The notes: generated by a model not told the origin, from the sequence alone. Positions 36,471 through 61,649 are shown, counted from the first letter of the stretch. The stretch is DNA of 64,000 bases from Oscillatoria sp. FACHB-1407 (GCF_014697545.1 NZ_JACJSA010000001.1:62001-126000), one strand, 5' to 3'. Translations and numbers: made by a program.

Positions 36471-37931
36471 ATGCGCCCGATGATGAGCACCATCAAGCCC
36501 CCTGACTGGACAAGAGCAATGGTAGACTTTCAGCGTTTTTTTGATGTTTGCAACCCCACCCGTACTCTCAATCTAGGCAACCCAGAAGACCAGCCTTACT
36601 ACATTGATTTCTCAGCCGTTCGGGGCAGCAACATTATTCGAGAACTCGAACGGACGATTCGGTTTTCCTCCGATCGCCCCACCTGTCAACTCTTCAGCGG
36701 GCACATCGGTTGTGGCAAATCCACCGAGTTATTGCGCCTCAAAGCCGAGTTAGAGCAACAAAACTTTTACGTTGTTTATTTTGAATCAACACAAGACCTG
36801 GACATGGTAGATGTTGAGGTCACTGATATTTTGTTGGCGATCGCTCGTCAGGTGAGTGAGAGCCTGGAACGTAGCCAGATCTTCCTACAACCCAAGGGGT
36901 TTAAGGAGTTTTTGAGAAAAACTGTTGACTTTCTGCAAACGCCGATTGAGTTGGCTGGAGAAGCGGAGTTAGCTGGATTGGGCAAAGTCTCCGCCAGCAG
37001 TAGTGGCAACCTGGAATTTTCACTGCCCGTTGGGATCGGCAAAATCACCGCCCGTGTGAAAGATAGCCCCAATTTACGGAGTCGATTGCGGCAATATCTG
37101 GAGCCCCGCACCAACACCATTTTGCAAGCTATCAATGATGAGTTGTTGCAACCAGCAACTCAGATTCTTAAGCAGCAGGGCAAAAAGGGGTTAGTGGTGA
37201 TTGTCGATAATCTGGATCGGGTGGAACCTCGCCCATCGGTATCGGGCAAACCCCAGACCGAGTATCTGTTTATCGATCGCGGTGAACAACTTCGCAATCT
37301 GAAATGCCATCTGGTTTACACCGTACCACTGATGCTCCTGTTCTCGAACAGCAGCGAAATGCTGAAGAATCGACTGGGCGGCGGCATGGCTCCCAAAGTG
37401 TTGCCCATGGTGCCAGTCCGATATCGCACAGGAGGCGTTGAACCAGAGGGAATGCGGCTTTTGCGTCAGATGGTATTAGTCAGAGCCTTTCCAGAATTGG
37501 TACAGGCAAACGATCCATCCGATGCTCAATTCAATGCCCAGTTTGAGGAGCGCATTACCAAAGTGTTTGATAGCTCTGAAACGCTCGATCGCCTCTGTTG
37601 GATCAGCGGTGGACATGTACGAAAGCTGCTGGCGTTGCTCTATTCCTGCTTGCGGCGTGAAGACCTGCCGTTAAACCGTCGCTGTGTAGAGCGAGTGATT
37701 CAAGAGTATCGTGATGATTTGCTGCTCACCATCGACGACAAAGAATGGGAAGTGATCTTGCGGGTGGTGCAACAGCAAAGCCTGCGAGGGGAGGAGCAAT
37801 TTCAAGCGTTACTTCCCAGTATGTTTTTCTTTGAATATTGGGATCAGCAGGGACGCTGGTTTGGGATCAATCCTGTATTAGAAGAAACGCAACAGTTTCA
37901 AAACTGGCAAAAACAAATGCAATCGCAGTAG
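36471..37931 (+). CDS. P-loop ATPase, partner of the STAND protein, 486 aa
   Basis: A large AAA/STAND-like NTPase. Walker A is GHIGCGKST (res 77-85) followed by a helix (ELLRLKAELEQ). Walker B is in GLVVIVDNLDRVEPRP (about res 240-255), with a sensor-like LKCHLVYTVPLMLLFS further on. A central insert (LAGLGKVSASSSGNLEFSLP) and a helical C-terminal domain (RREDLPLNRRCVERVIQEYR) with a winged-helix-like end complete it. I do not recognise a named family. The start is uncertain among ATGs at 36471, 36480 and 36483. The stop codon is 2 bases before the start of the giant STAND gene, so the two are translationally linked. Confidence 0.85.
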   Translation: MRPMMSTIKPPDWTRAMVDFQRFFDVCNPTRTLNLGNPEDQPYYIDFSAVRGSNIIRELERTIRFSSDRPTCQLFSGHIGCGKSTELLRLKAELEQQNFYVVYFESTQDLDMVDVEVTDILLAIARQVSESLERSQIFLQPKGFKEFLRKTVDFLQTPIELAGEAELAGLGKVSASSSGNLEFSLPVGIGKITARVKDSPNLRSRLRQYLEPRTNTILQAINDELLQPATQILKQQGKKGLVVIVDNLDRVEPRPSVSGKPQTEYLFIDRGEQLRNLKCHLVYTVPLMLLFSNSSEMLKNRLGGGMAPKVLPMVPVRYRTGGVEPEGMRLLRQMVLVRAFPELVQANDPSDAQFNAQFEERITKVFDSSETLDRLCWISGGHVRKLLALLYSCLRREDLPLNRRCVERVIQEYRDDLLLTIDDKEWEVILRVVQQQSLRGEEQFQALLPSMFFFEYWDQQGRWFGINPVLEETQQFQNWQKQMQSQ

Positions 37932-37933
37932 CC

Positions 37934-40900
37934 ATGACCGATTTATTTCACCCGGAGGATGTTGCAACTCACAACGAGGAATCGTTGAGGACTTTGTCAC
38001 GGGCGATCGCCTTTTCTCAGGGGCGATTTTCCTTGATTCTGGTGCGTTGCAACTACAATTGGGTGCAGGAACAGATTCGGCAAAGGCTGCGCGACGAATG
38101 CCCAATTCCGATTCGAGAATTGTCGTTACACAATACGGAAAAAACACTCTACACGTTCATCAAAACTCAGTTGGGACAGGCGCAACCCCAGGCATTGATG
38201 ATCTTGGGGTTAAATGCCGTCAAAGATCTAGACGATCTCCTTACGGCTACCAATCAGGTGCGTGATGAGTTTCGCAAGAGTTTCAACTTTCCGCTGATTT
38301 TGTGGGTGAATGATGCGATCGTGCAGAAATTGTCGCGGTTAGCACCCGACTTTAACAGTTGGGCAGGCGTACCCATTCGCTTTGCGATCGCCACTGATCC
38401 CCTGATCAAACTCCTTAAAGAACAGGCAGATGGGCTATTTGAACAGGCAACAAATGTTGGGGCAGGTCGTGTTCCCCGTAGCTCAGCTCTCTATTTAGAA
38501 ACGGACTCGTTCACCCAACCAGAGTTAAAAATTGCGCTGGCAGATCTGCAAAAACGTCATCAGGAACTTGATCTCGATCTGGCAGCCAGTCTGGAATTTA
38601 TTTTGGGGTTGGATGCCTACGCCAATAACCAGCTAGACAAGGCATATCAGCACTATCAAAAGAGCCTGGGCTTTTGGAAAGCAGACACCTCCGAGAATGA
38701 CACTTCCAAGCGGCGACGCGCCTGTGTGTTGTTTTATCTGGGGCTGTGGTGGCGGCGTTATGCGGCTTTAAACCGAGCCGAGTTTAACCTGGCGTGTTTG
38801 CGATCGCGCGACTACTATCAGCAATGCATTAATGGGTTGTTGCATGACAACCATCTCGACCTGGCAGCTAAATTTATCATTGCTCTGGGGGAGGTGTTGC
38901 AGCGGTTGGGCGAATGGGAAGAGTTAGCGGCGATCGCCCACACGGCTGTGCGGTTGCATCAACAGTCTCATGACTGGGTGCGGCTTGCCTACAGCTATAG
39001 CCTGCTGGCAGAGGTCGCGTTAGCTCGTGAATTGTGGCAAGAGGCAGAACACTACGCCAATCTTGCACTCCGGGCAAATGACCGCTTTCCCGATCCCGAT
39101 CAAGACAACCAATATCGCTACTCTGAATTAGATTGGGCACGTCCTCACTACCGCAGTCTCTATCAGTTATTGCTGGCGCAGGCGCAATATCATCTGGGGC
39201 TATTGCCAGAGGCGGTGGAAAATCTGGAGACAGCCATGAGAATCTGTCGCCATGCTTATGATCCGCTGTTGTATACCCGTATTCTCGAAGCGTTGCGATC
39301 GCTCTATTACCAGCAAGGGGAGTATCTCAAAGCCTTTGAGACAAAGCAGGAACAGCGATCCATTGAGCAGCAATATAGCCTCAGAGCCTTTTTAGGGGCG
39401 GGTCGGCTCAAGGCAGAGCGACAGGTCATTAATCCGGCGATCGTGCAGATTGAGGCTGCCAATAGTGGTGACTCAGGATTTAGCCAGACCCCCAGCGCAT
39501 CGGCTCAACCCATTGCGATCGCTCAGGAAATCTCTGCTTCCGGGCGACAATGGGATGTCGATCGACTGCTGGAGCGGCTCAGTAGCCGTCAATATAACCT
39601 GACGATCATTCACGGACAATCTGGAGTTGGCAAAAGCTCAATTATCAATGCGGGGTTAGTGCCTGCTCTGGAGCAAAAACCAATTGAGGCACGCAATCCA
39701 CTCCCCATTGTGTTGACTATTTATACGGATTGGATTCGTGAGTTGGGCAACTTGCTGTCAAGAGCACTGGCAAAGCGTAACATTCGCTGGAAAATGCCAA
39801 AGCACGAGGAACCCAGCATTCAACATCTGCTGGATTGTTTGCGGGCGAATGCCGATCAGCAGAGTTTATTAACGGTGTTGATCTTTGACCAATTTGAAGA
39901 ATTTTTCTTTATTTATCCCGATTTGTCTCATCGGCGATCGTTCTTTGAATTCTTTGGTGAATGTCTCAAGTTACCTTTTGTCAAAGTTGTGTTCTCGGTA
40001 CGGGAAGACTATTTGCACCACTTGTTAGAGTGTGAACGGTTACAACTGGATGATGTCACCAACAACATTTTGAGTCGCGATAATCGCTATCCACTCGGCA
40101 ACTTTTCGGCAGTGGATGCCCGATTAATTGTGCAACGCCTGACGCAGCGATCGCAGTTCTCTCTGGAGCCTGCCCTGATTGAGCAGTTGGTTCAAGATTT
40201 GGCACAAGAATCGGGTGAGGTGCGTCCCATTGAGCTCCAACTGGTGGGTGCCCAGTTGCAGGAAGATGACATCGTTACCCTCTCCCAATATCGGGCATTG
40301 GGCAACAACCCCAAGGAGAAATTAGTCGAACGGTTTTTAGAGCAGGTCGTCGAAGATTGTGGACCGCCTAACAAACAACTGGCGAACCTAGTGCTCTACT
40401 TACTCACCGATGAGAAGGGCACTCGTCCCTTGAGAACTCTGGATGAGCTAACCGAAAGTCTGGCAAAGCTGGCAGTAAACCTGACCATCGACTTTAACTC
40501 CCTCGACAAAACTCTGAATACGCTCAACGAGTTAACTAAAAATCTGTCTCATTTAACGGTTAACTCGACTGGGGGAACCGAGCAGCTTGACTTGATTCTC
40601 AAAATTCTGGTCAACTCTGGGTTAGTGCAATTTCTACCAGAGGTGCCCGCCCCTCGCTATCAGTTGGTTCACGACTATCTGGTGCCGTTGATTCGTAAAA
40701 AACAACAACCTGCTCTGCTGAAGCAGATTTCAGAACTGCGCCGACTCGAAAAGCAGCGACAGGCAGAAATTGAGCAACTGCAACGGGACAAAGAACTGTT
40801 AAAAGCCAGGGCACGCGAAGCCGAGTTGCAAGCTAAGCTGAAACGCACTCGCAAGGAGCAACGCCTCACCTTTGCGATCGCAGGGATGGGCACTTTGCTG

Positions 40901-43105
40901 GCAGTTTTGACGGCAGGAACCGTTTCCTATACGTACTGGCAGGCGATCGCTGAAATTAATGCCAGAACCTCCCAATCCTCAGCCCTGTTGTCATCCGATG
41001 ATCAGCTTGGTGCGTTGGTTGCCAGCATTCGTGCAGGACGAAACCTGCAAGACATGATTACCACTTCAACCTCGCTTGAGATCACAACCCTCAGTGTGAT
41101 GCAAAACGTCATTTACTCGGTGCAGGAATATAATCGCCTCATCGGTCACGAGTCGTGGGTTGACCAGGCCAGCTTTAGCCCCGATGGTCGTGTTATTGCC
41201 TCTGCCAGTGCCGACAACACGGTGCGTCTGTGGAGCATGGATGGGCAACTGTTACACACCCTCAGAGGACACACCAACCGAGTCAACAGTGTTAGTTTTA
41301 GCCCAGATGGTCAGACGATCGCCTCTGCCAGTGATGATGGCACCGTGAAGCTGTGGAACCTGGAGGGTCAGGAACTGCGGAGTTTGCGAGGGCATACGCG
41401 CCCAGTCACCAGCGTCAGCTTTAGTCCGGATGGCGCAACGATCGCCTCTGCCAGTGATGACAATACCATTAACCTGTGGAATAGAGACGGAACCCCGATA
41501 CGGACGCTAGTTGAGCACACCGATCGGGTGAAAGCGGTGAGTTTCAGTCAGGATGGAACGCTGGTATCTGCCAGTTGGGATGGCACGGTCATGCTCTGGA
41601 GTGCAGAGGGAATTCTCTTGGCGGTGCTCGAACACGGTAGCCGTGTCACGACCGTGAGCATCAGTGCCGATGGTGGCATCATTGCTTCGGGTGGCATGGA
41701 CAACACGGTGAAACTGTGGAATCGTCAGGGAGAATTGCTGCAAGTTCTTCTTAAGCACAACGATCGCATCACTGGACTCAGCTTCAGCGTCGATGGCAAC
41801 CGATTAGCCACAGCCAGTGCCGATAACACAGTGACAATCTGGACACAAAATAACACTTCTGAGTTTGAGCCAATTAGAACCTGGAGAGTCGATCAAGCGA
41901 TCAGCGTTAGTTTTGGGTTGGGCGATCGCTTAGCAACGACCGATGGCAACAACATGATTCGCCTATGGAAGTTGGATGGCATCCAACCGACCACCCTACA
42001 GGAGCCAGAAGTTTCACTGGCTAGTATGAGCTTTAGCCCCAATGGTCAAACTATCGCGACTGGCGGAATTGTCATAAATTCCAATCAATCAAACGCACTC
42101 GATGCATCAGAAAACAATGGAGCACTGATCTTGTGGGGGTTAGACGGTCGGCAAAAGGCTCATTTTGTCGCCAATAGCAGCGTTGACAGTATCAGCTATA
42201 GCCCTGATGGGGAGCGTATTGCAACTGCTGAAAACCCTCCTCCCGCCATTGCTATCACCGCCGAAGGAACGGTCACCGCTACCTCTGCCAAACCGGGACA
42301 GATTCGCGTGTGGAACCTGAATGGCGATGAGTTGCTCAGCATCGACACCCCCGGCAAAATTAGCAGCGTCAGTTTTAGCCCCAGCAACACTGCCGTTTCC
42401 TCAGAGGTACGCGGAGTATTACTGGCGGCAGCCATTACAACGTCAGACGTTGACCCTGATGGCGATCGCAAACCTGTTGGCGTGGTCACTCTATGGAATT
42501 TGGAAGGCGATGAAATCCATTCCTTCCAGGCACACAATGACGAGATCACCAGCCTTAGCTTTAGTCCGGATGGCACCGTTATTGCAACCAGCAGTGTAGA
42601 CAACACCGTTAAATTGTGGAATTTGCAAGGAGAAAATCTGGCAACTCTGAGAGGACACACAAACCGCGTCAACAGCGTTAGTTTTAGTCCGGATGGTCGC
42701 ACGATTGCCTCTGCCAGCACTGACACAACCGTTCGATTGTGGCATCGCGATGGTCGCTATCTCAAAACCTTAGAAGGTCATTTTAGTGCCGTGACTACCA
42801 CTGTCTTTCATCCAGATAGCAAGCTACTTGCCTCGGCTAGCTCAGATGGCAGCATCCATCTCTGGAACGTAGAAACTGGCAACTTGTTAGCGACGCTGAA
42901 ACGCGATGATAGTGCGATCGCAGCATTAAGCTTTAGCCGCGATGGTCGCACGATTGCCTCTGCCAGTGCAGATGCTGTTGTGTTGTGGGACTTTAATGTA
43001 GATGTTTTGCTAGAACGGGGATGCGACTGGTTGCAGGACTATTTGCACCACAGTAGTAGCATTAGCGAAAGCGATCGCACACTGTGTGATCCAATAACTC
43101 CGTAA
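37934..43105 (+). CDS. STAND NTPase with TPR-like helices and 14 WD40 repeats, 1723 aa
   Basis: I start at ATG 37934 ([16 protein letters not shown]), 2 bases after the upstream gene; the frame is open further up inside that gene. Order of parts: residues 1-190, a Rossmann-like domain without Walker A ([40 protein letters not shown]); about 190-520, TPR-like helical repeats; about 540-900, an nSTAND1-type NTPase with Walker [10 protein letters not shown] (561-569) and Walker [12 protein letters not shown] (Asp652), then a winged-helix region; a coiled coil; a transmembrane helix at about 978-1000 ([20 protein letters not shown]); and 14 WD40 repeats from 1069, two seven-blade propellers with the (S/A)FSPDG...IASAS..DxTVxLW consensus. 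The C-tail GCDWLQDYL...SESDRTLCD is as in other cyanobacterial WD40 proteins. Likely a membrane-tethered sensor that assembles when the propellers bind a ligand; the output is unknown. Confidence 0.93.
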
Positions 43106-53802: not shown

Positions 53803-55278
53803 ATGGATAAAAAAGCAATTGAAACACACCGCATCATGAAACTGGGACGAATCACACAACTTGGTTTCGGCACCGTGTTAACCATGATGGTGGGGATTGG
53901 TTTTGTCTCCAAAATCAGTATGAATACCTTAGTTGAGTCTGATGGTTGGGTAACTCATACCTATGCTGTTAAAGAACAATTACGAGGGTTGGAGAAGAGC
54001 CTGGTTGATGCCGAAACAGGACAACGAGGATTCATTTATACCAATCAGGATGATTTTTTAGATCCCTATGTTCAGGCAGAAGAGGCGTTAAAATCTCACT
54101 TTTCACAACTCAGAACGCTCATAAACGATAACCCAGAGCAACTTGCAAGATTGGATCGAGTTGAGGACTTAGCCCGGCAGAAATGGGACAACATGGCTCA
54201 ATCGATCGCTTTGAAGCGAGAAGGTAGAGAGCAAGAACTGAGAGAATTAGTGCTGACTCGTCAGGGTAAGCAACTGATGGATGAGATCCGTACTGAGCTT
54301 GAGGAGATGATCCGAATAGAAAATGGTTTGCTGGCTGAACGGCAGAGTGAAGCAGAACGAGCTGAAAATTTTGCAACCGCTGTCTCCATTGGGGGAACGT
54401 CACTTGCTATCTTGTTAGGGTTGGCATCTCTCGCATTTATTGCTCGTAAAGTAGTACGACCAATCAATCAGGTCGCCAATGCGATCGCCGGATCATCCAG
54501 TGAAATTGCCTCAACGGTGACACAGCAGGAGCGTACTGCGGCACAACAGGCAACAGCGGTATCGCAAACCACTACCACAATGGATGAACTCGGCATATCA
54601 TCTCGCCAATCGGCAGAGCAAGCTGAGTCCGCTGCCACAGGAGCACGGCAGGCACTGACCCTGGCTGAAGGGGGCACCCAAGCGGTCGGGCGTACCCTGG
54701 AGGGCATGGCATCTCTGAAGAAAAAGGTAGATGCGATCGCCTCTCAAATCTGTCATCTCAGCGAACAAACGAATCAGATCGGCAACATCACCAGTCTGGT
54801 CAATGATCTGGCAAATCAAACCAATATGCTGGCGTTAAATGCGGCAGTAGAAGCGGCGCGTGCCGGGGATCACGGCAAGGGATTTGCAGTCGTTGCCAGT
54901 GAAATTCGCAAACTAGCCGACCAAAGCAAAAAATCAACTGAGAAAATTAATACCCTGATTGCTGATATTCAATCTGCCATTAACACCACTGTCATCGTTA
55001 CCGATGAGGGTACTAAAACGGTTGAAGATGGGGTGAAAATTGCTCAAGAGACTGCCTCTGCCTTTACTGGAGTCACGGATGCGGTCAACCATGTATTCCT
55101 CAACAGTCAGCAGATCTCATTGAGTGCTCAACAACAGGCGATCGCCATTCAGCAGGTCGTTGATGCCATGAATGCTCTGAATCTAGCTGCCAGAGAAACC
55201 GCCAGTGGTATCAGCCAGACCAAGGTTAGTACTCAACAATTGAATGACGCGGCGCGAAACTTGCAAGCGATTGTCTAG
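53803..55278 (+). CDS. Methyl-accepting chemotaxis protein with CHASE3-like sensor
   Basis: First gene of the chemosensory operon. The 491-aa receptor has an N-terminal membrane helix ([19 protein letters not shown], about res 18-36), a CHASE3-like four-helix extracytoplasmic domain (about 38-185, with [17 protein letters not shown]), a second helix ([21 protein letters not shown]) and a short linker [18 protein letters not shown] that is only the first helix of a HAMP domain. The signalling domain has the hairpin-tip block [19 protein letters not shown] then [20 protein letters not shown]. There is no CheR-docking pentapeptide at the C-terminus. It probably drives the CheA kinase downstream. 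Confidence 0.95.
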
Positions 55279-55294
55279 CAACCGCAATTCAATC

Positions 55295-56854
55295 ATGACC
55301 AACCTATCCCAACTCGTATCCCAGTGTTCATCCATGAAACATTCAACTCAGCCCTTTGTGGACTTAATTGCTGCTACGTTAGGGTTGCGCGTGCGTGAGC
55401 AAGAGGAAAACGCCCTTGGGCATAAGTTGTTAAAGCGAGCAAAAAGCTTAGGTTTGCCCTCGCTAGAAGCGTATTATCAACTTCTCGTTTCGACGCACAC
55501 CTCTGTCGTTAAAGATGCCGAGTGGCTCAAACTGATCGATGTATTAACGGTTAACGAGAGTTACTTTCTGCGAGATCAAGGACAGTTTGCACTACTCAAA
55601 CATCACGTCCTACCGGAACTCATTCATGCTAAACAGCAGTTGAGTTGCACTCAGCAGAAAAATATGCGGGTTTGGAGTGCTGGATGTTCTACAGGAGAAG
55701 AGGCTTACTCCTTAGCTATTCTCTTAAAAGAGTTAATTCCAGCAGAACAGTCGTGGAATATCCTTGTACTGGGAACTGATATCAATGAGTTGGCATTGCT
55801 ACAGGCAAAACAGGGAATCTATAGCAATTGGTCATTCCGAGCAGTCAATCCAGAGATTCAAAATAAGTACTTTCGCCCCCATCGTCAGGGTTGGGAAGTT
55901 GATCCTGCAATCCGCGATATGGTTACGTTTCAACTGGGTAATCTGGTTCAGGATGATTATCCAAATGTGCAATCTAAAATTCACAATTTTGATCTCATCC
56001 TGTGTCGCAACGTATTTATTTACTTCAACGCAGCGGCGATCGCCTCGGTTCTCAATCGCTTCTATTGGGCCCTGTCACCCAATGGTTATTTGATGACAGG
56101 GCACACTGAGTTATATGGGCAAAATTTGGGACAATTTCAAGTCAAAACCTTTCCCGAATCCGTTATCTATCAACGACAATCCCTGCCTCAGCTTGTTGCT
56201 CCAACTCAGTCGCCTGTCAATGAAACGCCAAGTTTAGCGTTGCCCGATTCCTCCCTGACTCGCCCTGCTGACCCTTCGACTGTGGAAGCAGCAACAATCA
56301 GAAGTTCCCCAGAATCAGAAAAACTGGAAAACCGAACAGTATCACCAGAGGCGATCGCACTGGATCATGTTACTACCCTGATTCGTAGCAAAGCCTACAC
56401 CAGAGCGATTCATGCGGCTAACCAGTTAATTGTTCAATTCCCTCGTTGTTTTCAGGCATACTGTTTAATCGCTGAAGCTTACGCTAACTCCGGCGACTAT
56501 GCAAACGCAATTCGAGCCTGCCAACAAGCCCAGCAGTTGAACCCGTTTGCAACAGAACCGATTTATCTGTTGGCTCAAATTTCTCAGGAGCAGGGTGATC
56601 TGGAGGAAGCCAGAAACTTGCTCCGACGAGTCATTTATCTAGCTCCAACCTCGGTTTACGCCTACTTTGAGTTGGGCTGTCTATACGAACAACAAGGCAA
56701 TCTTGCGAGAGCTTGTAAAAATTGGCAAGCGGCATCGGATGCCTTAAAACAAGTCATGCCAGAGACAACTGTAGACTTTCAAGACCGCCTGACCGCTGCC
56801 GAATTGCAAATTGTTGTTGAGCAAAAACTCAGTCTAAATAAAAGCCGAGTGTGA
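55295..56854 (+). CDS. cheR: CheR-type protein methyltransferase with TPR repeats
   Basis: The enzyme methylates glutamates of the receptor with SAM. I start at ATG 55295 (MTNLSQLVSQCSSMKHSTQP), 16 bases after the receptor stop; the frame is open into the receptor gene. The CheR N-domain is at about res 15-80. The SAM-binding domain has VWSAGCSTGEEAYSLAILL, VLGTDINELAL and LILCRNVFIYF. A Pro/Ser linker leads to three to four TPR motifs in the C-terminal 160 residues (AYANSGDYANAIRACQQAQQ, LAQISQEQGDLEEARNLL, FELGCLYEQQGNLARACKNW). CheR with C-terminal TPRs is typical of Wsp and Frz pathways (WspC, FrzF), not of classical flagellar ones. Confidence 0.95.
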   Translation: MTNLSQLVSQCSSMKHSTQPFVDLIAATLGLRVREQEENALGHKLLKRAKSLGLPSLEAYYQLLVSTHTSVVKDAEWLKLIDVLTVNESYFLRDQGQFALLKHHVLPELIHAKQQLSCTQQKNMRVWSAGCSTGEEAYSLAILLKELIPAEQSWNILVLGTDINELALLQAKQGIYSNWSFRAVNPEIQNKYFRPHRQGWEVDPAIRDMVTFQLGNLVQDDYPNVQSKIHNFDLILCRNVFIYFNAAAIASVLNRFYWALSPNGYLMTGHTELYGQNLGQFQVKTFPESVIYQRQSLPQLVAPTQSPVNETPSLALPDSSLTRPADPSTVEAATIRSSPESEKLENRTVSPEAIALDHVTTLIRSKAYTRAIHAANQLIVQFPRCFQAYCLIAEAYANSGDYANAIRACQQAQQLNPFATEPIYLLAQISQEQGDLEEARNLLRRVIYLAPTSVYAYFELGCLYEQQGNLARACKNWQAASDALKQVMPETTVDFQDRLTAAELQIVVEQKLSLNKSRV

Positions 56855-56924
56855 GTACCTCTACGTCTGAATAAACACAAAAACCATCCATCGGATCGCG
56901 CTAATTGCGCCTCGCAGAAGTCTT

Positions 56925-57989
56925 ATGAGTCATCAATCCTATTTACTGTTTGAATTGGGTTACGCCTGTTACGGCATCTCCACCTCAGCCGTTCAGGAAC
57001 TCTTTTTCTTGCCAGAAGTGACTCCTATTCCTGAAGCACCTGCCTTTATGGTGGGTGTGATTAATTTGCGAGGTCATATTCTACCGATCGTCGATCTGCA
57101 TCGACGCTTAGGGCAACAATCTCTGCCCTACCAACTCACCGACAGCATTATTGTGGTACAGTGGCAAACTCAGCGAGTCGGATTGCTGGTCAATCAGATC
57201 TATGAAGTGCAGGCGATCGCCGATGAGCAAATTCAATCAGAGTTAGTGTACGAGCAGTGGCAGGCAGAGGGATTTCAACGATTTGCTACAGGTGTTGCCA
57301 GCATTGGCACCACTTTAGTCACCCTACTGAGTGCTGAACAATTGGTGCGATCGGGTGCATTGACTCCAGCAGAACGTGCACAGTTTGAGTCGTATAACAA
57401 CAACGGAGCAAGTTCAACCGGAGCGATCGCAGACAACGCATTGAGAACATTGCCTCAATTCTGTGCTCATCTCACAGACTCCGCACAACACATTCTGCGA
57501 TCCCGTTCTGAAAGTTTGAGACAGGCGATCGCTACACAAGACACTGTTGGCATTCCCGTGACTATCGTTCGGCTAGAGGGTGAATACTTTGGCTTCAGTT
57601 TAGAAACGGTGTATGAGTTTACCGACATTCGCAAAGTGACGCCTGTTCCCTGTTGTCCACCGCATGTCCTCGGCAATACGAACTTGCGGGGTGAGATCGT
57701 GACGCTGGTCGATATTAGTCACGTCATCAACTTACCGATGACTGCCTCAAACTCCAGACGAAGGGCGATCGTCGTTCGTTTAGATGAAATCGTAGCTGGC
57801 ATTGCTGTGGACGAAATCATGGATGTTGTGTATCTCGACTCGACGCAGATCTTGCCCGCTCCTGTTGCCATTCATTTTGCCTCAGATGAATATTTGCAGG
57901 GGGTTGCTCCCTATCAAAACAAAATGATTGGCATTATCAGTCTCTCTAAAATCCTCACTTCTGGCGTGTTAGTCGTGAACGAGGATTAA
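56925..57989 (+). CDS. cheW: Double CheW-domain adaptor
   Basis: The 354-aa protein contains two CheW domains in tandem. The first (about res 1-150) has CYGISTSAVQELFFLPEVTP and FMVGVINLRGHILPIVDLHR. The second (about 195-350) has GFSLETVYEFTDIRKVTPVP, HVLGNTNLRGEIVTLVDISH and IIGIISLSKIL-like GIISLSKIL. Each fold couples receptor to CheA kinase, so one chain here could replace two separate CheW proteins, as in Wsp (WspB, WspD). The gap to cheR is 70 bases; AT-free ribosome site is not obvious. Confidence 0.94.
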   Translation: MSHQSYLLFELGYACYGISTSAVQELFFLPEVTPIPEAPAFMVGVINLRGHILPIVDLHRRLGQQSLPYQLTDSIIVVQWQTQRVGLLVNQIYEVQAIADEQIQSELVYEQWQAEGFQRFATGVASIGTTLVTLLSAEQLVRSGALTPAERAQFESYNNNGASSTGAIADNALRTLPQFCAHLTDSAQHILRSRSESLRQAIATQDTVGIPVTIVRLEGEYFGFSLETVYEFTDIRKVTPVPCCPPHVLGNTNLRGEIVTLVDISHVINLPMTASNSRRRAIVVRLDEIVAGIAVDEIMDVVYLDSTQILPAPVAIHFASDEYLQGVAPYQNKMIGIISLSKILTSGVLVVNED

Positions 57990-58091
57990 TCAGCTTGGGT
58001 TTGCTGTAAGGCGTGTTCGAGATTTCAAGATTGGTGATTTCACAAACTATAGCAACTGCGAGATATCGATATAACAAGGGAGTAGCGGTTA

Positions 58092-60485
58092 ATGATTGAC
58101 GATGAAGAACTACGCAATATTTTTAAGACTACCAGTGAAGAACATTTGCAGAATCTAGATGCGGGAATACTACACCTGGAAAAACATCTGGATGACCAAT
58201 CCCTGTTAGAAGAATTGTTGCGTGAGGCGCACTCCCTAAAAGGGGATGCCAACATGCTCGGAGTCAAAGATATTGGGACGTTGGCACATCAGGTTGAGTA
58301 CGTATTGACCCAACTGAAACAACATCAAATCACCTTTTCACAAGAGTTGGGCGATCGCCTCGCTCAGTGTATTGCTGCTATGTATCGTCTCGTCCACGAG
58401 GCAGTGACCGGAGAGCCAGTAGGCGTAGATGCATTTCATGTCCTGGCAGTATTGATGGGCAGTGAAACAGGGCAAGCCGTACAGAAAGAAATCAAAACAG
58501 TAGAAACCGTTGAGAACGTTCAGGAAGTAGAAGAAGCCAAGGAAGAGGAAGTTACAGAAGTTAGAGAAGTTACAGAAGTTAGAGAAATTGCAGAAGTTGC
58601 AGAAGTTAGAGAAGCAGACGAGGTAACAGCAACCCCAGTAGCAACAGAACCTTTATCCCCTCCATCCCCTCTCCCCCTCCACCCCTCCACCCCTCCACCC
58701 TCCCAATCCCCTGCCTATCGCATCGAAACAATTCGCGTTCCGACTCGCAGTTTAGACAACCTGATGACTCAAGCGGGGGAACTAACCGTTACCAAAATTC
58801 GGATTGCCCATCGTCTATCTGAAATTGAGGCGATCGCCACACTTTGGGATGAATGGAGCCGTGACCTAACGGGTAATCGTCTCTCTGGCAATAGACAACA
58901 GGACAACGGAGCGACCAGCAACAGCGCATTTGAACCTCGCCATCGGTCTACCGATCGCTTGCAACGCATGGAAGCTCTGGTCAACCGTCTCAGGGATGCG
59001 CTCTACGAAGACACCAAACGGTTAGAACTGATCAGCGACAAATTAGCCGAGGGCATATGCACACTAAGGCTGTTGCCACTATCAACCATCTTTAATGTGT
59101 TTCCTCGGATGGTGCGCGATTTAGCACGGCAAGAAGGCAAACAGGTTGAGTTAGTAATTGAAGGCGGAGAAACCCATGCCGACAAGCGCATTCTAGAAGA
59201 GATGAAAGACCCATTGATGCATTTGCTTCGCAATGCGGTAGATCACGGGATTGAGTCTCCAGCCCAGCGCGAACAGTTAGGCAAACCTGCAACAGCAACA
59301 ATTTGCCTGCGGAGCTATCAAACCCCAACCCATATCGTGATTGAGATTCAGGATGATGGGCGTGGACTCAATCTGGAGCAGATTAAGCAAACGGCATTAA
59401 AACACGGACTGTGCCGAGAAGAAGATCTCGCCATGATGACCGACAGCCAGATTCAGGCCCTCATTTTCACACCGGGATTTTCTACGGCTCCACTGGTAAC
59501 GGAAGTTTCAGGTCGTGGGGTTGGGCTAGACGTTGTCCAAACCAATGTCGAAAAATTTAAAGGAAGCCTCCAGGTAGAGTCTAACCCAGGGCAGGGGTGC
59601 CTTTTCCGCATTCAGTTGGGTATTACATTAGCCACTGCCCATGTTTTGATCGTGCTGATCAATGGCACACCTTACGCCATTCCGGTCGAGTTTGTTCGCA
59701 CTGCCTGTCTGGTCGATCGCAATGAAATCTTTACCCTGGAAAATCGCGAAACTATTGTTCGTGAAGGGCAACCTGTCTCGGTAGCATGGTTAGCTGACCT
59801 GTTAGAACTGCCAGCAGCCAATAGTTCGCCCTCTACACCAACCGCAAAACAGCAGTTTGCGTGTTTGCTGTTACAAGTCGGACAGGAACAACTGGGCGTA
59901 TTGGTGGATGCCGTGATTGACGAGCAAGATGTCGTCATTAAGCCTCAAAGTCAACTCCTCAAACGGGTTCGTAATGTCTCTGGGGCAACTATTCTGGGAA
60001 CGGGTGAAGTGTGCATTGTGCTCAATCCCCAGGATCTGATTAAATCTGTTCAACGGCGTGTAGTAAAGCTGCCCCGTAGCAGCCCATCCTCCACACCTGC
60101 AACGCCTCAATTAGCTGCAACCAAACCAACCATTCTGTTAGTGGAAGACTCGATCGCCACTCGCACTCAAGAAAAACGGATGCTAGAAACCGCAGGTTAC
60201 GAGGTGATTACAGCCGTTGATGGCAACGATGGATTTAACAAGTTGCAGTCCAATCCAGTTGATGCAGTCATTTCCGATGTGCAAATGCCAAACTTAGACG
60301 GATTACAACTCACCGCCAAGATTCGTCAACAGCGCGAATATAATGAGTTACCCATTATTCTGGTTACCTCTCTTGCTAGCGATGAAGACAAACGCCGAGG
60401 TGCAGAGGCAGGAGCAAATGCCTACATTACCAAGAGTAGCCTGAATCAAAGCATCCTGGTTGAAACCTTGCAACGCTTAATTTAG
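58092..60485 (+). CDS. cheA: Hybrid CheA-type histidine kinase with receiver domain
   Basis: The 797-aa protein has an HPt domain with the phosphorylated His47 (REAHSLKGDANMLG), a variable acidic linker with a VTEVREVTEVREIAEV-like repeat (about res 135-180), a dimerisation helix, and a HATPase core (N-box HLLRNAVDHGIESPAQRE, G1 DDGRGL, G2 GRGVGLDVV). A CheW-like domain follows (about 500-650) and then a C-terminal receiver with Asp729 (DAVISDVQMPNLDG) and Lys in YITKSS. CheA fused to a receiver is as in WspE and FrzE. The P2 domain of classical CheA cannot be recognised. Confidence 0.95.
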   Translation: MIDDEELRNIFKTTSEEHLQNLDAGILHLEKHLDDQSLLEELLREAHSLKGDANMLGVKDIGTLAHQVEYVLTQLKQHQITFSQELGDRLAQCIAAMYRLVHEAVTGEPVGVDAFHVLAVLMGSETGQAVQKEIKTVETVENVQEVEEAKEEEVTEVREVTEVREIAEVAEVREADEVTATPVATEPLSPPSPLPLHPSTPPPSQSPAYRIETIRVPTRSLDNLMTQAGELTVTKIRIAHRLSEIEAIATLWDEWSRDLTGNRLSGNRQQDNGATSNSAFEPRHRSTDRLQRMEALVNRLRDALYEDTKRLELISDKLAEGICTLRLLPLSTIFNVFPRMVRDLARQEGKQVELVIEGGETHADKRILEEMKDPLMHLLRNAVDHGIESPAQREQLGKPATATICLRSYQTPTHIVIEIQDDGRGLNLEQIKQTALKHGLCREEDLAMMTDSQIQALIFTPGFSTAPLVTEVSGRGVGLDVVQTNVEKFKGSLQVESNPGQGCLFRIQLGITLATAHVLIVLINGTPYAIPVEFVRTACLVDRNEIFTLENRETIVREGQPVSVAWLADLLELPAANSSPSTPTAKQQFACLLLQVGQEQLGVLVDAVIDEQDVVIKPQSQLLKRVRNVSGATILGTGEVCIVLNPQDLIKSVQRRVVKLPRSSPSSTPATPQLAATKPTILLVEDSIATRTQEKRMLETAGYEVITAVDGNDGFNKLQSNPVDAVISDVQMPNLDGLQLTAKIRQQREYNELPIILVTSLASDEDKRRGAEAGANAYITKSSLNQSILVETLQRLI
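58500..58630 (+). repeat. Repeat-expanded acidic linker inside cheA
   Basis: Nine-base units GAAGTTAGA, GAAGTTACA and GAAATTGCA-like repeats give the peptide repeat EVREVTEVREIAEVAEVRE. It joins the HPt domain to the rest of the kinase. The number of units is likely to vary between strains. Confidence 0.7.
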
Positions 60486-60542
60486 TCGGTAGGCTACCCT
60501 TAACTCAGCGTGCCATAACCTCCCTCTACCTCATTTATTCCA

Positions 60543-61649
60543 ATGCCTGCCTCCCCCATCGCCGTACTGCTTGTAGAAGACTCCCCTGTGGCTCTCATGA
60601 TCCTCAAGCGCATCTTAGCGGGTTCATCCGAAATTGAGGTTGTCGGAGTAGCTCAGAATGGGATTGAGGCGTTGGAGATGATCCCCAAGTTGCAACCCAA
60701 GGTCATCTGCACTGACTTAAACATGCCTAAAATGAGTGGGTTAGAGTTGACTCGCAGAGTCATGGCAGAGTGCCCTCGTCCAATTTTGGTCATCAGTGCC
60801 TCGGTCGATCAACAGGACGATGCTCAAAACGTCTTTCAGCTTTTACAGGCGGGTGCTTTAGATGTTTTTCCAAAACCGACGGTGGAGCTGCTGTCAGAAT
60901 ACGAACAAATCAAACATGAATTAATTACCAAAATTAAGATCATTGCGGGTGTTTCAGTATTTACTCAACATCCAGGAATGAGAAATAAAGAGTTAGTGAT
61001 TAAGAATTCTAAAAGACCTGAAAATGAAGAATTAAACCCTCATCAGGTCAACCCCTATACATTTTCTAATGTTCGCTCAACGCTCCCCAGAGTGATTGCG
61101 ATTGGTGCGTCCACGGGTGGACCTCAAGCTCTGTTTACGATTCTAAAATCTCTACCTGCTAATTTTCCAATACCGATTTTGTGTGTTCAACACATCAGCG
61201 TTGGATTTTTAGATGGGTTGGTGGGGTGGCTCTCAACCGAGTGTCAGTTACGCATTGTGATTGCTCGTGCAGGTGATGTACCCCAGCCCGGAATCGTGTA
61301 TTTTGCTCCAGACCATTACCATCTGCAACTGGATCAGCAGGGGCGGATTGCTTTATCCAGTGATGTTCCTGTCTCTGGGCATCGTCCTTCTATCAGCATG
61401 ACGTTTCAAGCAGTAGCCAATTATTATCGACAAGCGAGCCTTGGTATTCTATTGACTGGAATGGGGCGAGATGGAGCCGAAGGATTACTGGCGATCGCCC
61501 GTGCAGGTGGAACCACAATTGCACAGGATGAGCAAAGCTGTATCGTGTTTGGTATGCCCAAAGAAGCGATCGCCCTCGGAGCCGCTCAACAGATTCTACC
61601 CATTGGTGAGATCGCTCCTAAGCTGCTCAAACAGTGCTTGAGACAGTAA
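60543..61649 (+). CDS. cheB: CheB-type protein-glutamate methylesterase
   Basis: CheB removes methyl groups from the receptor and resets the pathway. The receiver domain (res 1-125) has phospho-acceptor Asp58 (CTDLNMPKMSG). The methylesterase domain (from about 182) has the catalytic Ser190 in GASTGG, His217 in CVQHIS and Asp310 in LTGMGRDGAEG. The length of 368 aa is normal. Its last 23 bases overlap the end of the convergent receiver gene. Presence of CheB and CheR is unusual in cyanobacterial chemosensory clusters. Confidence 0.96.
   Translation: MPASPIAVLLVEDSPVALMILKRILAGSSEIEVVGVAQNGIEALEMIPKLQPKVICTDLNMPKMSGLELTRRVMAECPRPILVISASVDQQDDAQNVFQLLQAGALDVFPKPTVELLSEYEQIKHELITKIKIIAGVSVFTQHPGMRNKELVIKNSKRPENEELNPHQVNPYTFSNVRSTLPRVIAIGASTGGPQALFTILKSLPANFPIPILCVQHISVGFLDGLVGWLSTECQLRIVIARAGDVPQPGIVYFAPDHYHLQLDQQGRIALSSDVPVSGHRPSISMTFQAVANYYRQASLGILLTGMGRDGAEGLLAIARAGGTTIAQDEQSCIVFGMPKEAIALGAAQQILPIGEIAPKLLKQCLRQ

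Follow-up and report, generated by a model that had tools for sequence, protein, structure and literature searches.

A recurrent cyanobacterial gene pair of an ATPase and a Walker-less N-domain, joined to exchangeable STAND receptors

The N-terminal slot of bacterial STAND proteins holds effectors or effector-associated domains, and both NLR-like STAND receptors and nSTAND1 conflict proteins have mostly been described from multicellular bacteria (PMC8195603, PMC10907252). Avs/bNACHT and the nSTAND1 conflict proteins share a common plan, i.e., an N-terminal coupling domain, a STAND switch, and a C-terminal repeat sensor. The MoxR-vWA ternary systems and inactive STAND (iSTAND) are multi-NTPase conflict systems of multicellular prokaryotes, some of them with an inactive NTPase component and with TPR or propeller parts (PMC7159879). 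Two further relatives by kind are the KAP-like defence ATPases RdrA of RADAR and QatA of Qat, and the cyanobacterial STAND-WD40 proteins that are annotated as "WD-40 repeat protein" or "ribosome assembly protein 4". Here, we report a two-gene locus of Oscillatoria sp. FACHB-1407 and compare it with these systems.

The locus lies in a stretch of 64,000 nucleotides (NZ_JACJSA010000001.1:62001-126000), which is called the window below. A gene for a 486-aa ATPase is followed, after a gap of 2 bases and on the same strand, by a gene for a 1723-aa protein that opens with ATG (Table 1). The coordinates and lengths in the first-pass annotation proved exact, and the parts that it had listed for the second protein, i.e., a Walker-less Rossmann-like domain (the N-domain below), TPR-like helices, a STAND NTPase (here nSTAND1), a transmembrane helix (here one hydrophobic helix), and 14 WD40 repeats, were all recovered by Pfam, AlphaFold2, and hydropathy. 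The genome has a single copy each of the ATPase and the N-domain gene. Elsewhere in the window (53803-61649), a run of genes for a receptor, CheW-like and CheA-like proteins, and a response regulator reads, by sequence, as a signalling cluster of the chemotaxis type.

Table 1. Positions of the features of the gene pair, counted from the first letter of the window
Feature	Coordinates	Strand	Basis
Gene 1: AAA+/STAND-like (Pfam KAP) ATPase, 486 aa, predicted C-terminal winged-helix-like part	36471..37931	+	PF07693, 27.4 bits; AlphaFold2
ATPase Walker A GHIGCGKS, residues 77-84	36699..36722	+	(nearly) invariant in alignments of 20 and 31 rows
ATPase Walker B VVIVDNLDR, residues 242-250	37194..37220	+	D246, L248, D249 invariant; model beta strand 241-246
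ATPase SGGHVR motif, residues 379-384, sensor-2-like position	37605..37622	+	G380, G381, H382, R384 invariant; functional label putative
Gene 2: N-domain / TPR / nSTAND1 / TM / 14 x WD40, 1723 aa	37934..43105	+	Pfam, AlphaFold2, hydropathy
N-domain, residues 1-175, Walker-less alpha/beta, constant ATPase partner	37934..38458	+	alignment A2; AlphaFold2
TPR-like helical region, residues 195-482	38516..39379	+	AlphaFold2; LGN and Rap-type TPR fold matches, Z up to 23.6
nSTAND1 NTPase, residues 537-839	39542..40450	+	PF20703, 116.5 bits (cut-off 27.1)
STAND Walker A GQSGVGKS, residues 561-568	39614..39637	+	GxxxxGK[ST] in 58/58 full-length proteins incl. the window's
Predicted single transmembrane helix, residues 978-998; the stretch before it basic and coiled-coil-like	40865..40927	+	hydropathy 1.69
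14 WD40 blades, residues 1065-1690, enough for two propellers of seven blades each	41126..43003	+	PF00400; 14 blade ends LW/VW/IW
C-terminal tail with paired cysteines C1697 and C1718	43022..43087	+	Cys pair in tail, 54/56 full-length proteins

The ATPase resembles the KAP family: it scores above the Pfam gathering threshold for KAP_NTPase (20 bits), its Walker B is of the DxLDR type, and an Acaryochloris relative is named "KAP family NTPase" in RefSeq. Transmembrane segments inserted in the P-loop domain are typical, not universal, of KAP NTPases. Unlike these, the window ATPase shows no transmembrane segment by hydropathy (no 19-residue span at a mean of 1.3 or more), and its AlphaFold2 model (mean pLDDT 82) best matches TnsC, ORC/Cdc6, and CED-4/NLR-type AAA+ folds (Z 12-15 over 230-297 residues, 10-16% identity). 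Foldseek also lists RdrA of RADAR for this model. RdrA and QatA share the same broad ATPase fold; however, the scores of our ATPase are far below family level, and its constant partner is an N-domain gene, not a deaminase or a Qat gene. The first-pass annotation recognised neither the first protein nor the pair as a named system, and neither protein matches one; the best PADLOC score of the ATPase is 25 bits, to the candidate PDC-S20 and below family level, and QatA reaches 15 bits. In contrast to the MoxR-vWA/iSTAND systems, neither MoxR nor vWA is among the Pfam families listed for the two proteins (the flanking open reading frames were read by eye), and the available part of the account of those systems holds no description of the ATPase/N-domain pair (PMC7159879). 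In profile-profile comparison, the ATPase is similar to the STAND domain over 319-384 columns (P about 2e-4, decoys 0.008 or worse), and the module thus appears to bring together two NTPases from a single clade.

The first-pass annotation had regarded the ATPase as a dedicated partner of the gene behind it and had proposed a search for the two proteins together in cyanobacterial genomes. This search gave a co-occurrence far beyond chance: in a phylum-wide sample of 117 genomes, both genes were present in 30, the ATPase only in four, the N-domain only in one, and neither in 82 (Fisher p = 2e-22). For 97 of 112 ATPase hits, an N-domain gene follows at most 1.6 kb downstream on the same strand, with a median gap of 51 bases. 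An order-level survey of 36 genomes found an ATPase relative in 28 and an N-domain relative in 29. Distances in the ATPase tree and the partner tree are correlated (r = 0.93), the correlation being partly due to shared ancestry. Unpaired cases occur on both sides: there are ATPase hits that lack a nearby N-domain gene, and N-domain genes that lack a nearby ATPase. In two genomes (G005, G007), the closest ATPase relative is without an N-domain neighbour and an N-domain/STAND/WD40 protein of about 2000 aa is encoded elsewhere, so both are kept when unlinked. The dedicated partnership is thereby borne out. A generic ATPase of the KAP kind could still lie beside an unrelated WD40 protein by accident, and some ATPase-WD40 adjacency is indeed expected because WD40 genes are so common in the Oscillatoria sp. 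genome. Chance adjacency is refuted by the co-occurrence and adjacency counts, and it also sits badly with the retention of unlinked genes and with the one copy of each in the own genome; we give this explanation hardly any credence.

What is constant beside the ATPase differs from what had first been supposed. The STAND gene was taken as the constant partner, and this does not hold: the N-domain is constant, usually with TPRs, and the STAND switch is optional. Among the 97 adjacent partners, five are shorter than 250 aa, 43 are of 250-900 aa, 13 of 900-1500 aa, and 36 longer than 1500 aa; hence 48 of the 97 are below 900 aa, the size of an N-domain alone or of N-domain plus TPR. In a Pfam scan of eight short partners from the order, all showed TPRs and none had a STAND among the families listed. 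ATPase homologues are therefore often found without a STAND gene, and the earlier view of the partner has to be given up for its STAND half and kept for the N-domain. Given these short STAND-less partners, ATPase and N-domain make up the core, and the STAND-WD40 half behaves like something added to it. By Pfam, two partners (1022 and 1261 aa) contain nSTAND1 but lack WD40.

The sensor half is exchanged. The N-domain occurs alone (about 165 aa), as N-domain+TPR, as N-domain+TPR+nSTAND1+WD40, and as N-domain+NACHT+TPR. The last form comes from four loci (L171-L174), where the ATPase (154-170 bits) adjoins a protein of 1806-2208 aa whose N-terminal 165 residues score 37-47 bits against the N-domain (E 9e-10 to 5e-13). 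In L171, L173, and L174, Pfam places a NACHT and then long TPR arrays after the N-domain; L172, alike by motif, has a Walker A at the same place as the NACHT of the other three. Two unlike STAND receptors thus carry the N-domain in their N-terminal slot, and no fewer than two forms of the STAND switch, nSTAND1-WD40 and NACHT-TPR, have been joined to it. On a Calothrix plasmid (L138:9007-16514) and a second contig (G058 contig 20:3370-8102), a protein that carries two N-domains lies downstream of a tandem of two ATPase genes, a pattern that would fit a joint duplication of both partners. This is a weaker sign of pairing, and the ratio of ATPase to N-domain is not strict because at other loci one ATPase stands between two N-domain genes. 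Stand-alone N-domain genes (about 165-172 aa) with no adjoining ATPase were also seen, at or near an SLH and glycosyl-hydrolase-like (GHL10) gene (L160-L163, L165).

Partner residues 1-506 gave an AlphaFold2 model with a mean pLDDT of 85, in which an alternating beta/alpha N-domain is followed by TPR-like paired helices. The order of its strands and helices (b33-39, a42-55, b61-64, a72-80, b88-91, a99-116, b120-125, a127-141, b148-150) fits a P-loop NTPase fold, and the first strand of the model leads into a short RCN loop at the place where a Walker A would stand. No Walker A was found in the first 200 residues of any of 58 full-length proteins. On the predicted strand order, the N-domain may be a P-loop-like "pseudo-NTPase", the profile comparison being at noise. 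Homology to the neighbouring ATPase was not found by sequence, the similarity being at noise level against decoys. Five members scanned gave no Pfam match above chance, and the sole PDB sequence match, OHCU decarboxylase (E = 0.03), is unconvincing. A fold search with the 506-residue model, i.e., N-domain and TPR region together, returned TPR matches only. No TPR family is among the best 25 Pfam matches of the window protein; relatives have clear TPR matches.

The STAND domain belongs to nSTAND1, and its Walker A is intact, accompanied by a Walker B-like motif, VLIFDQFE. The hydrophobic helix behind it is modest (mean hydropathy in Table 1); by the same measure, only 24 of 56 full-length proteins reach 1.6 or more. 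Ten of the 14 WD40 blades, whose ends fall at residues 1099-1684, pass singly in Pfam. The PADLOC match of the partner to HEAT-ARM_XIII (116 bits) has its best stretch in these blades. In the full-length proteins, cysteines number 1.2 per 1000 residues on the propeller side and 10.6 on the N-terminal side, and the pair in the tail means exactly two cysteines in the last 60 residues. This asymmetry together with the tail pair fits a disulfide in an oxidising compartment, which on sequence grounds may put the propellers outside the cytoplasm and the NTPases inside, with the caveat that WD40 repeats may be cysteine-poor anyway. Of 56 proteins, 20 have more basic residues on the N-terminal side of the helix and 24 have more on the C-terminal side, so that the positive-inside rule favours neither orientation in the family; the helix locator behind these counts misplaced some helices. 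The C-terminal half of the partner is of the same common type as other cyanobacterial STAND-WD40 proteins; the Oscillatoria sp. genome has three strong nSTAND1 genes and many WD40 genes. However, only this one in the genome carries an N-domain and lies downstream of the ATPase. Two partners from other loci (L137:10553-16087, L139:10569-16103) are called "ribosome assembly protein 4" by NCBI, a name that probably reflects nothing more than their WD40 similarity.

The STAND switch lies in mid-protein, a large repeat sensor follows it, and the constant N-domain in front goes with an ATPase; the pair thus reads as an NLR-like relay, and the NLR-like architecture seen in the first-pass annotation stands, with intact switch motifs and a C-terminal repeat sensor. 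The difference from Avs/bNACHT is in the N-terminal slot, where no effector domain of theirs was found by Pfam, PADLOC, or NCBIfam; in place of a nuclease, a TIR, or an effector-associated domain, it contains an unclassified alpha/beta domain that goes with a separate ATPase gene. The window form further adds a membrane helix between switch and sensor. As the N-domain is in the slot held by effectors in published STAND proteins, we infer that it couples the receptor to the ATPase. Tentatively, and at somewhat less than an even chance, we consider the pair an NLR-like ATP-driven signalling module whose conserved core is the stand-alone AAA+/STAND-like ATPase with the N-domain as its docking partner. 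The propellers would bind a ligand, probably on the far side of the membrane; the ATP-bound STAND domains would then assemble; the clustered N-domains would recruit and activate the ATPase by physical contact; and the activated ATPase, as the output, would act on a client. The signal would accordingly run from the receptor to the ATPase.

Where the genes reside was followed in a neighbourhood sample of the 80 best relatives in named genomes, 74 of them with sufficient upstream sequence; the sample is biased to close relatives of the query and rich in Nostocales. The ATPase gene is divergent from ftsQ in 51 of the 74 loci, which makes one branch core chromosomal and not part of a defence island. 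By Pfam and NCBIfam identities, ftsZ is present in 50 of these 51 loci, psbO downstream in 31, and sigF in 25; Nostocales, Arthrospira, Microcoleus, Laspinema, Moorena, and Limnothrix are among the hosts. The Anabaena tags of the pair, which from the gene order we take to be all3855 and all3856, gave no match in the literature. The tag alr3857 is FtsQ (PMC7766704). The other copies, including that of the window, are scattered, some on plasmids, and copies with a partner are found on plasmids of Nostoc, Calothrix, and Acaryochloris. In the ATPase tree, the window copy groups, weakly supported (82-94) and on a long branch, with unlinked copies that come from several families. On an Acidobacteria plasmid (L140:6151-8861), a distant ATPase is followed by a protein that matches the N-domain in part (24.6 bits); the core may thus extend beyond cyanobacteria.

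The pair could be a cell-division or envelope factor: in filamentous cyanobacteria, its ftsQ-linked branch above all would regulate the divisome or septum or remodel it, the ATPase being a chaperone-like remodeller and the TPR/WD40 protein a scaffold. The divergent order is the same in all 51 ftsQ-linked loci, and stand-alone N-domain genes adjoin the SLH/glycosyl-hydrolase-like gene at several loci. Copies of the N-domain+TPR class also point this way: at four loci (L145, L146, L147, L150), they lie with the ATPase beside hflX and near gshB, with ftsZ also near in L146 and cofG on the other side in three of the four, and in G058 and G102 they are about 12 kb from a STAND-class copy. However, the own ftsQ-ftsZ locus of Oscillatoria sp. 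is without the pair, the window copy is without ftsQ linkage, and neither ftsQ nor ftsZ is near the pair in the stretches examined from order relatives. Because psbO and sigF are frequent neighbours too, the linkage may be neutral synteny. Acaryochloris, a unicellular genus, has a copy on a plasmid, against a division role. We think such a role improbable.

A STAND switch with WD40 repeats is typical of NLR-like defence, and the pair might be an anti-phage or self-destruct system in which the propellers sense phage or damage, the STAND domains oligomerise, and the ATPase triggers growth arrest or death, a role like that of Avs/bNACHT. The accessory copies, that of the window included, are patchy, and plasmid copies occur; in Acaryochloris, recombinases, HicA/HicB genes, and a NACHT gene are near. 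The ATPase has weak PADLOC candidate matches and RdrA in its Foldseek list. Against this, Pfam, PADLOC, and NCBIfam show in neither protein a nuclease, TIR, or protease domain, nor one for membrane lysis or from a known toxin, and the ftsQ-linked branch is fixed at one chromosomal place across many genera. A defence neighbourhood was rejected, since the ten neighbouring proteins scanned gave no matches or generic-looking or partial ones, only as ABC transporter parts, Uma2-like, radical-SAM-like, or sensor kinase proteins, and the genes of the wider window read as ordinary chromosomal ones. A phage origin was likewise dropped; phage records and viral contigs contain no relatives. The defence role that the first-pass annotation had in mind is thus not upheld by the surroundings, and we regard it as rather unlikely.

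Returning to the signalling module, we would, with low confidence, expect an endogenous signal (envelope- or division-related) rather than phage. In its widest form, the proposal would be an unnamed NLR-like family in which a Walker-less N-domain in the effector slot recruits an AAA+ ATPase, the sensors are interchangeable (TPR alone, NACHT-TPR, transmembrane nSTAND1-WD40), and the core chromosomal copy monitors the septum or envelope beside ftsQ-ftsZ in filamentous cyanobacteria; in that full extent, we hold it to be speculative and unlikely. No paper on the pair was found in the literature searched, which covers few subscription journals. The analysis defines a recurrent two-gene core, i.e., the ATPase and its dedicated unclassified N-domain, which has been combined with at least two STAND receptors of different kinds. 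In one branch, NLR-like proteins are tied to a core division locus and not to defence islands, and an NLR-like receptor with a separate ATPase as its likely output is directly testable in laboratory cyanobacteria.
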